Assembly (NCBI GenBank): GCA_024709245.1
Contig: JANJXB010000116.1
Location: 1 to 34,602, forward strand
Reading direction: 5' to 3'
DNA from: Acholeplasmataceae bacterium
GTDB taxonomy: Bacteria > Bacillota_I > Bacilli_A > Acholeplasmatales > Acholeplasmataceae
DNA length: 34,602 nt
Shown: piece by piece, positions 10,716-26,535 of the stretch
How positions within the stretch are numbered: the stretch's first letter is position 1
Layout: the number at the start of each line of letters is the position of its first letter
Position numbers and translations under genes: made by a program
The notes under the pieces: generated by a model
Database searches by the model: none
What the model saw: the letters and a program-made list of their open reading frames with translations, nothing else
Told to the model about the DNA's origin: nothing

Positions 10716-11468
10716 TTAGATGACATTGACACGTTTTAAAAATGTTTTTGTGCGTTCTTCTTTAGGATTGGAAAAGATGATTTCGGGTGTACCCATCTCA
10801 ACGATGACACCTTCAGCCATGAAGACAACTCGATCAGAAACTTCTTTGGCAAATGCCATTTCGTGAGTGACGATGACCATGGTCATTCCAGCATTTGCAA
10901 GTGTTCGCATGACAGAGAGCACTTCACCCACCATTTCAGGATCCAAAGCTGAGGTAGGTTCATCGAATAACATCACATCGGGTTTCATTGCCAGTGCTCT
11001 TGCGATTGCAACTCTTTGTTTTTGACCACCGGAAAGTTGACTTGGATAAGCATCGATTTTATCGCTTAATCCCACTTTTTCTAAGAGGTCTTTAGCCATG
11101 ATTTCAGCATCATGCTCGCTCATCTTCAAAACAAGTTTTGGTGATAATGTAATATTTTCTAAGACTGAAAGATGTGGGAATAGATTGAATGACTGAAACA
11201 CCATTCCCATTTTTTCTCTCAATTGATTGATGTTTTTATCCTTAATCGATAACAAATGACCTTCGAAAATGATTGAGCCCGCAGACGGAACTTCCATTAA
11301 ATTCATGCATCTTAACAGTGTTGATTTACCCGAACCTGATGGACCAATGATGGATACAACTTCACCCTTCATAATCTCCAAATCAACACCGGATAATGCA
11401 TGAATCGTTGTCTTAAACGTTTTTTTCAACCCTTTAATCTGAATAATCTTGTTACTTGGCGTCTGCAT
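10716..11468 (-). CDS. Polar amino-acid ABC transporter ATP-binding protein (GlnQ family)
   Basis: [15 protein letters not shown] Walker [41 protein letters not shown] 8-9 nt upstream of the internal ATG (MQTPSNK) supports start 11468 rather than 11492. Confidence 0.95.
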
Positions 11469-12165
11469 GGCGCATTCTCCTTTCAAAAGCATTCATCAGT
11501 TTCGATAAAGGATAGGTGAGCATCAAATATAAAATACCAGCCATCATATAGAGTTCAGTTACTGCAAGTGTCATACCCTTAACAACACCTATTTGATACA
11601 TCAATTCTGCAACACCGACATAGACAAAGATGGAAGTTTCCTTGATGATTGTCACAAACTCATTACCGAGCGCAGGAAAAATGTTTTTGACAGCTTGAGG
11701 TAGAACTATTCTTTTCATCGTAAGCGATGCAGACATCCCCAAAGAACGTGCAGCTTCGGTTTGACCTTTATCGACAGCAAGAATACCCCCTCGAATGATT
11801 TCAGAAATATAGGCCGAACTATTGATGAGTAATGCCACCAGTCCAGGAACAAAACTTCCCATATCAATGCCACCAATCAAAAATAAGGGGATGTTTAAGA
11901 GTTGATAGATCAAAAGAACTTGAACAAGCAAAGGTGTTCCACGAATAATTTCAACATAAGCAGTTGCGGGGATGCTTAAAAATTTCTTCCCCGATAACCG
12001 CATTAAAGCAGGAATCAAAGCAAGAATACTCCCCAGGGCTACTGCAAGAAAGGCAAGAAATAAAGTCATGCCTAGCCCTTGAAACAAGAGTGCCAGATAA
12101 TCAGCATCTCGTAAAAAAGAAAAATTTAAAAATATGTTCATTAGGATGAAAATTCCACGAGCCAT
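11452..12165 (-). CDS. Polar amino-acid ABC transporter permease
   Basis: Hydrophobic protein with the His/Glu/Gln permease pattern: [18 protein letters not shown]-like ([19 protein letters not shown]), [54 protein letters not shown]. Start could be MNIFLNF. Confidence 0.95.
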
Positions 12166-12947
12166 TCAGCAATTTTGCCTTCTTCAATCAATTCATCAAT
12201 CACGGCATTAATCAATTCAAGCAGTTCGGTATCGCCTTTTTGAACAGCAACCGCATTACCTTCATAGCCTTCTAAAGAATCGATTTCGATTTTGATGAAA
12301 TCGGGGAAGTTGCCATTGATGTGAGTGTCTGCGACCGTACCTTCAGTGAAGAGGGCATCGATTTGCTTATTATTCAAGTTGTTTAACAATTCATTTAAGT
12401 CTGTGATTAGTTTTGCGGTTGCATTGGGAGTAAATACACTTGCAAATTCAGCTTGAATGGAACCGGACTGTGCACCGACTCGAACACCTGCGACATTGAT
12501 TTTTTCTAATGTATCATAAAGTGCTTGATTATCTTTATGAACCAAAATCACTTGCTGAACAGATTCTTCAGTGTAGTAAGACTTCGAAAAATCGACTACT
12601 TGAGCTCTGGTTGGTGTTGGTGTAAGACCAGCAATGACAAAATCAACTTTACCTGTACGAACGTCTTCAACTAAAAAATCAAATCCTTTATGAATGACTC
12701 TGAGATTCTTACCCAAAGCACGAGCGATTGCTTTCCCAATTTCAATATCGACACCGACAACAGTATTTTTCCCGTTTTCATCTTTAACAATGTTTTCATA
12801 CGGTGGATAATCTGCTGAGGTAGCCATCGTTACATACTCAGTGTAACTTGGATCTAATTCAAAATCGAATACATTGGATGAATTACTACATGCACTTAAT
12901 CCAATGGCTGCAAATACTAAGACTAAAACCAATAATAATTTCTTCAT
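12141..12947 (-). CDS. Amino-acid ABC transporter substrate-binding lipoprotein
   Basis: MKKLLLVLVLVFAAIGLSACSNSS lipobox; YPPYENIVKDENGKNTVVGVDIEIGKAIARALGKNLRVIHKGFDFLVEDVRTGKVDFVIAGLTPTPTRA (SBP family 3). AAGGAG upstream of this ATG favours 12947 over the tracked 12977. Confidence 0.95.
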   Translation of the reverse strand: MKKLLLVLVLVFAAIGLSACSNSSNVFDFELDPSYTEYVTMATSADYPPYENIVKDENGKNTVVGVDIEIGKAIARALGKNLRVIHKGFDFLVEDVRTGKVDFVIAGLTPTPTRAQVVDFSKSYYTEESVQQVILVHKDNQALYDTLEKINVAGVRVGAQSGSIQAEFASVFTPNATAKLITDLNELLNNLNNKQIDALFTEGTVADTHINGNFPDFIKIEIDSLEGYEGNAVAVQKGDTELLELINAVIDELIEEGKIAEWLVEFSS

Positions 12948-13051
12948 TTTCTTCTCCTTAGGATTAAAAAAAGCCAAAGCTGGCTTCTGATTTCTGTATA
13001 CTCAGGGGTTGTCACATACCCCATCTTGGAAATAGGCTGGCTTTTTTTTAT
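12948..13051 (-). ncRNA. Putative structured cis-regulatory leader (attenuator/riboswitch-like) of the amino-acid ABC operon
   Basis: Region between the predicted TSS and the start codon holds an intrinsic terminator (12966-12988) plus an upstream segment (13038-13048) perfectly complementary over 11 nt to the terminator 3' arm/U-tract (12966-12976). Two small internal hairpins are predictable by eye. Confidence 0.6.
12966..12988 (-). terminator. Intrinsic terminator inside the 5' leader of the amino-acid ABC operon
   Basis: Minus strand AGAAGCCA-GCTT-TGGCTTTT TTT: 8-bp stem (one G-U), tetraloop, U-run; ends about 18 nt before the ATG. No gene on this strand lies immediately upstream that it could terminate. 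Confidence 0.75.
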
Positions 13052-13057
13052 GAGACA

Positions 13058-13085
13058 ATTTTAGCACACATGCAAAAATATGCAA
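13058..13085 (-). promoter_or_regulatory. Sigma-A-like promoter for the amino-acid ABC operon leader
   Basis: Minus strand TTGCAT - 16 nt - (TGC)TAAAAT, extended -10. Confidence 0.6.
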
Positions 13086-13185
13086 GCAATTCCTCAAAAA
13101 AAGTCCTGATTTTAAAAAGTAAACGTTTTCTATACTGAAACTCAGTTCAGAAAAACTTTGAACTTCAAAAAGTATAATTTTGAAA

Positions 13186-26297: not shown

Positions 26298-26319
26298 TAG
26301 AAATAACTCATATAAATCA

Positions 26320-26535
26320 ATGATCAGAAGTAGTACTTGACTTCAAATATCCGTCAAGAGAGCACAGGAGGGTGGAATCTGTGCCGGTTATGTCAACGAA
26401 TTCATCTGTGAGAGGTGCTAGACACACCCGTGTGCTCGCGTTAAGAGTCTTTGAGGGCTAGAGCAATCTAGAACTAAGGTGGTACCGCGTGAATCACGTC
26501 CTTAGAGCAATCTGAGGACTTTTATTTTTATAACT
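26320..26535 (+). promoter_or_regulatory. T-box riboswitch (tRNA-Phe) controlling pheST
   Basis: T-box core AACTAAGGTGGTACCGCG at ~26471-26489; stem I region with candidate UUC (Phe) specifier at 26401-26403; terminator before pheS RBS. Confidence 0.95.
26498..26531 (+). terminator. T-box intrinsic terminator
   Basis: GTCCTTAG-AGCAAT-CTGAGGAC followed by TTTTATTTTTA. Confidence 0.9.

Follow-up and report, generated by a model that had tools for sequence, protein, structure and literature searches.

We describe a short leader RNA that precedes a polar amino-acid ABC importer operon in a 34,602-nucleotide stretch of Acholeplasmataceae DNA (hereafter the window) and that recurs, singly or in series, in other Bacilli. 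With a probability of roughly 60%, we read it as a new class of cis-acting antitermination leader RNA that controls arginine acquisition, is probably a riboswitch, and allows its genes to be transcribed when arginine is short. The core of the element is AAGA(U/C), a hairpin termed P2, and (U/C)GAG(U/C)AUA. A more specific reading, in which the element is the first bacterial arginine riboswitch class, is held tentatively, at somewhat short of even odds: the aptamer would be compact, with a helix, P1, enclosing AAGAY-P2-YGAGYAUA in some 40 nt, and would serve singly or in tandem in Bacilli that either have argGH or are without argG.

The window locus and its conserved core

The original prediction placed on the minus strand a promoter of the form TTGCAT-N16-TAAAAT, a leader of about 104 nt, and an intrinsic terminator ahead of a lipoprotein ATG, and our reading of that strand agrees. 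The leader starts at about 13051, the element proper occupies window positions 13050-12966, and the gene for the substrate-binding protein (SBP) of the importer begins just downstream of the terminator, with its ATG at 12947-12945. The features of the locus are as follows.

13058-13085, minus strand: promoter, with -35 TTGCAT at 13085-13080, a 16-nt spacer and -10 TAAAAT at 13063-13058, by minus-strand reading
13036-13049, minus strand: antiterminator 5' strand (A-tract plus GCCAGC), the outer part of P1, predicted to pair with 12980-12966
13029-13033, minus strand: 5' strand of P1a, AUUUC, beside the core, predicted to pair with GAAAU at 12994-12990
13023-13027, minus strand: core 5' half, AAGAU, with AAGA invariant in 18 sequences and the final position U or C
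13005-13022, minus strand: P2 hairpin, GGGG (13022-13019) with CCCC (13008-13005) and a loop of variable length, from covariation
12997-13004, minus strand: core 3' half, UGAGUAUA, with GAG.AUA invariant in 18 sequences
12990-12994, minus strand: 3' strand of P1a, GAAAU, from sequence and the comparative P1 test
12986-12966, minus strand: intrinsic terminator AAGCCA-GCTT-TGGCTTTTTTT (3' arm TGGCTT plus U-tract), by minus-strand reading
12141-12947, minus strand: gene 1, lipoprotein SBP of an ABC importer, arginine-binding-protein type, from PDB matches
11452-12165, minus strand: gene 2, permease of the polar amino-acid uptake family (TIGR01726, above cut-off)
10716-11492, minus strand: gene 3, ATPase of the GlnQ/TcyN/ArtP type, from an NCBIfam scan

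The promoter is sigma-70-like with an extended -10, and both TTGnnn and TGnnTAnAAT are kept in relatives; across 15 orthologous leaders the promoter, A-tract, core and terminator are all retained. Because folding of the 87-nt window sequence alone is uninformative, lying barely above chance (z = -1.5), the evidence for structure is comparative. In the alignment of 15 relatives, 96% of cells in the terminator hairpin are paired, and RNAalifold recovers P2 and the terminator from the Acholeplasmataceae alignment, whose conserved features are an A-rich 5' end, the core (CAAGAU, hairpin, UGAGUAUA) and the terminator. P2, which corresponds to a GGGG...CCCC hairpin of the original prediction, is paired in 72 of 72 cells, and all four of its pairs covary, each varying on both sides; as a control, sliding the partner strand by one column abolishes the pairing. 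The remainder of the internal architecture proposed with that hairpin fell away. A second hairpin, CUGA...UCAG, is paired in 45% of cells and a loop pairing, GUAUG/UAUAC, in 56%, each equal to shuffles and the latter showing no double changes, and the region they were to occupy is conserved instead as the unpaired core, AAGAU...UGAGUAUA.

The 3' side of the core can accommodate long insertions, and in one genus the core is pared down to AAAGAU/UGAGUA, a symmetric 6x6 internal loop flanked by P1 and P2, whose opposed bases could stack as U-U, A-G, G-A, A-G and A-U/C. At two loci, L124 (1501-1660) and L135 (1500-1590, both on the reading strand), the P2 3' strand and (U)GAGUAUA are duplicated behind a single AAGAU-P2 5' half, and a duplicated core 3' half is also seen in the last copies of L102, L104, L105, L107 and L109, in several genera. 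Two 3' halves for one 5' half imply two mutually exclusive routes to the core.

Antiterminator and terminator pairings

The leader segment AAAAAAAGCCAGC (13048-13036) is complementary to the loop, 3' arm and U-tract of the terminator (12980-12966), so that the 3' arm and U-tract are common to the terminator and the antiterminator pairing. This complementarity, which the original prediction had pointed out, is kept in relatives: among 15 from the Acholeplasmataceae, the duplex between 5' leader and terminator has a mean energy of -12.4 kcal/mol, compared with -4.9 +/- 0.6 for shuffled leaders, a difference of 13 SD. When leaders were swapped among close relatives, 123 of 1000 swaps were as good, a control that does not discriminate because the sequences of close relatives are too alike. 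The discriminating test of P1 was permutation across 40 copies, in which the duplex formed by the flanks averaged -8.97 kcal/mol against -5.77 +/- 0.31 for permuted partners, with none of 300 permutations as good; taken alone, P1 is weak or unexceptional in several Acholeplasmataceae copies, that of the window included.

P1 lies directly 5' of AAGAU, while its 3' strand is found anywhere from 0 to more than 100 nt past UGAGYAUA, sometimes with a hairpin inserted. The terminator arm that it blocks differs by lineage, being the 3' arm in the genus of the window and the 5' arm elsewhere. At L106, for example, P1 is formed by TTGGTTTTATTTA and TAAATAAAGCCAA, and the terminator is AAAGCCAA-GCAA-TTGGCTTT, the 5' arm of which is taken up by P1. 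That different arms are blocked in different lineages implies that the antitermination logic is kept while the sequence changes. On these predicted pairings, P1 and the terminator are mutually exclusive in the copies examined, through pairings that differ from one lineage to another, and the exclusion first proposed for the window thereby gains comparative support. In most units the two states differ in folding energy by no more than a few kcal/mol, which is what one would anticipate for a switch; in the second copy of L104 and in the first and second copies of both L106 and L107, the balance already lies with P1, whose fold is the stabler. What is conserved is a structured leader RNA with a plausible expression platform, as would be looked for in a riboswitch.

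Distribution, gene context and known families

A nucleotide search of 88 Acholeplasmataceae genomes found the leader in 15, each time ahead of the orthologous SBP. A first covariance model added one locus (L062) and later models two more (L124 and L135), which brings the Acholeplasmataceae carriers to 18. The first model also reached L077, a locus from another family of the class, at which a further amino-acid SBP is preceded by two complete units in tandem. A tighter second model detected the element in 9 of the 28 genomes of that other family, usually with two or three units each. With two genomes that the second and third models added from a sister family of the same order, the total comes to 29 genomes and about 42 units in two bacterial orders. 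The third model, run over 395 sampled genomes, all of them Bacilli and many of them draft metagenome-assembled genomes (MAGs), gave matches in 16 at E <= 0.03, a threshold to be read with the roughness of covariance-model E-values in mind, and every one of these matches precedes an amino-acid ABC importer or argG. Two matches of the first model were treated as chance: L078, inside grpE and ahead of dnaK, and L079, where a long reading frame on the opposite strand runs across the match. In tandem arrangements the whole unit is serially duplicated, and the copies mostly carry one terminator each. L101 (1600-1760) has yet another terminator-like hairpin, its third (AGAAGCTTAAAGAGCTTCTTTTTTT), after the second element and ahead of the SBP.

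The genes that follow the element concern arginine in several respects. The best PDB matches of the window SBP are 4ymx, 4i62 and 4h5f, the first two of which we take to be arginine binders. The third, 4H5F, is described as an arginine-binding SBP of Streptococcus pneumoniae (PMC5573083). Several carrier SBPs are likewise nearest to arginine-binding proteins (among proteins of this kind, TmArgBP corresponds to 4PRS; PMC4022495), although the importers span several SBP subfamilies, not all of them nearest to arginine binders, and the SBP of the type at L109 is less clear. In 28 of the 29 carriers the element stands ahead of a polar amino-acid ABC importer, and argG was detected in none of these 28, some of which are incomplete MAGs. 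Among 38 genomes examined, argG is present in one, and there the element (L103) stands ahead of argG and argH.

In the leader of this last genome (L103, 1488-1783), the element is followed directly by an Arg T-box and then by argG and argH, placing two RNA switches in series. The specifier of the T-box reads CGC (Arg), by the same anchor that yields UUC for the T-box ahead of pheS in the window. The latter (window 26311-26506, UUC specifier for Phe, ahead of pheS-pheT) is of a known class.

Five tandem leaders from three genera (L102, L104, L106, L107 and L108) contain, downstream of the element copies, a short ORF with tandem Arg codons, which starts 190-457 nt past the first core and before the SBP. 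These ORFs (MRRNKAITKNGVVME, MRRKISIEEKEWKSTI, MRRNNINTRNGVVIELALY, MKTKIRRPYFFL and MKTKMRRLF...) have a strong Shine-Dalgarno sequence, and their tandem codons are CGG CGG, CGG AGA or CGG CGA, mostly CGG, a codon that such AT-rich genomes should seldom use. From their sequences, these MRR, MKTKIRR and MKTKMRR ORFs are probable Arg leader peptides. Strong matches to the element all lie ahead of a polar amino-acid importer, with its substrate assigned by homology, or of argGH, and the regulon as a whole points to arginine. The leader had been predicted to sense an amino acid or related metabolite transported by this system; gene context makes arginine the candidate, and its direct binding is something we infer.

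The original prediction recognised no known class in this leader of a polar amino-acid ABC operon, and in a cmscan against Rfam 15 at the gathering score no family was matched by the leader in the window, where nothing credible appeared at E <= 10 either, or by the element at 12 related loci. The Rfam matches in these sequences are T-boxes alone, separate from the element (window 26311-26506 and L103:1572-1783), and the element itself has no match to the T-box family, RF00230. We know of no riboswitch core that reads AAGAY...YGAGYAUA. T-box leaders likewise oppose antiterminator to terminator, regulate amino-acid genes and occur in tandem arrays, but they are about 200 nt long where the element is about 85 nt, and the element has no Stem I, specifier loop or T-box sequence. 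A T-box-like reading of tRNA-Arg by the core was considered and rejected, as inspection by eye found no conserved acceptor-end pairing or purine-flanked specifier. In the glycine gcvT, guanidine-IV and Gd4v RNAs, as in the element, an outer helix competes with an intrinsic terminator and the conserved nucleotides lie between helices. Gd4v, an orphan variant of guanidine-IV, provides a precedent for a ligandless candidate class found in the same way (PMC9788692). Glycine switches also share the tandem arrangement of aptamers, whereas tandem copies of the element mostly have a terminator apiece.

Arginine sensing by RNA has been proposed before, for a fungal riboswitch in the arginase mRNA of Aspergillus; a 2022 review judged the fungal claims insufficiently supported (PMC10043782). 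A full-text literature search, with subscription papers and preprints outside its scope, found no validated bacterial arginine riboswitch.

Proposed mechanism and alternative explanations

In the proposed ON fold, P1 would close a conserved loop in which AAGA(U/C) faces (U/C)GAG(U/C)AUA, capped by P2, and by consuming one arm of the terminator it would let RNA polymerase continue into argGH or the genes of the importer; formation of the terminator hairpin would define the OFF fold. The assignment of P1 to the ON fold is a well-supported prediction from sequence, since a terminator arm is consumed in each lineage, which makes P1-core-P2 the read-through state. The conserved loop would be the binding site for an effector that reports arginine status, most likely a small molecule, with L-arginine as the most likely candidate. 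The net effect would be expression when arginine is scarce, a direction suggested by gene logic, that is, by the Arg T-box, the Arg-codon ORFs and the carriers lacking argG. Arginine, if it is the ligand, should act against P1 and so turn the genes off; if the ligand stabilises P1, it would be a scarcity signal or a protein. P1 may thus be weakened by arginine or strengthened by a scarcity signal, and the sequence is compatible with either sign.

The architecture of P1 resembles that of ligand-ON switches such as glycine gcvT. The genes, however, should be on when arginine is scarce, and simple arginine-ON logic fits poorly with an Arg T-box ahead of argGH. The same layout, with P1 sequestering a terminator arm and abutting the 5' side of the core, would suit a riboswitch that turns its genes on when bound to some other ligand, such as citrulline, ornithine or ppGpp, and an ON signal combined with an Arg T-box before argGH would make a sensible AND gate. 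We regard this as unlikely, though a serious alternative: citrulline could not be used through ArgG in carriers without argG, and confinement to arginine genes would be unexpected for ppGpp.

The effector might instead be an antiterminator protein that binds the AAGAU/UGAGUAUA loop in the manner of a factor acting at a RAT site, stabilises P1 and prevents termination at low arginine. RNA targets of BglG/LicT are imperfect hairpins that overlap a terminator and whose formation leads to read-through, a likeness that counts in favour of this explanation, as do the small size of the core for an aptamer and the long insertions tolerated on its 3' side. However, RAT sites of the BglG/LicT type govern sugar genes whereas the element governs amino-acid genes, and the RNA-binding domain of these proteins, CAT_RBD (PF03123), was found in 0 of 38 genomes, all 29 carriers included; nor is a gene for an RNA-binding regulator conspicuous beside the loci read. 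A BglG/LicT protein is thereby excluded, and an antiterminator protein in general we hold to be unlikely.

The near balance of the two folds would also be compatible with a plain attenuator, in which the terminator reduces expression of the importer to a set degree, the 5' complementarity only tunes it and there is no sensor. But an unpaired core that stays invariant across two orders while the sequences of P1 and P2 change is unexpected of a fixed attenuator, as is serial duplication of the whole unit, and we consider this very unlikely. Ribosome-mediated attenuation through a leader peptide encoded inside the element is scarcely credible: although five leaders have Arg-codon ORFs after the element, these lie downstream of its terminators, the orthologous leaders have no start codon with a Shine-Dalgarno sequence inside the element, the sole candidate in the window overlaps the promoter, the AUG of AAGAUG gives way to AUA or AUC in many copies, and the loops differ in length without keeping frame. 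Leader peptides do exist in the bacterial family of the window, as in the uORFC-13-1 motif before Acholeplasma aroF listed in a 2021 survey (PMC8632094), which is likewise an attenuation leader with a terminator but differs from the element in being peptide-based, with phenylalanine codons and another gene.

An antitermination leader that responds to arginine shortage thus remains our preferred reading. If its ligand is arginine, the element would fill a gap among amino-acid riboswitches; if it answers to a protein or another signal, genome-reduced bacteria would have an antitermination system of a new kind. Layered RNA control of a single nutrient could be put to the test here, given the tandem repeats, the two alternative 3' halves that share one 5' half, and the leaders in which the element is accompanied by an Arg T-box or an Arg-codon ORF.

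Two further conserved motifs lie upstream of the importer promoter in the window. A palindrome, TTTGAAGTTCAAAG (13156-13169), conserved in 15 genomes near the divergent acpP, is similar to operators of the FabT type (TTTGAnnnTCAAA). A conserved AACGTTT(A/T)C (13115-13130; TGATAACGTTTACTT in relatives), some 35 nt ahead of the importer promoter, looks like an operator of the LacI/CcpA type, and by its sequence is likely to provide a second, DNA-level control.
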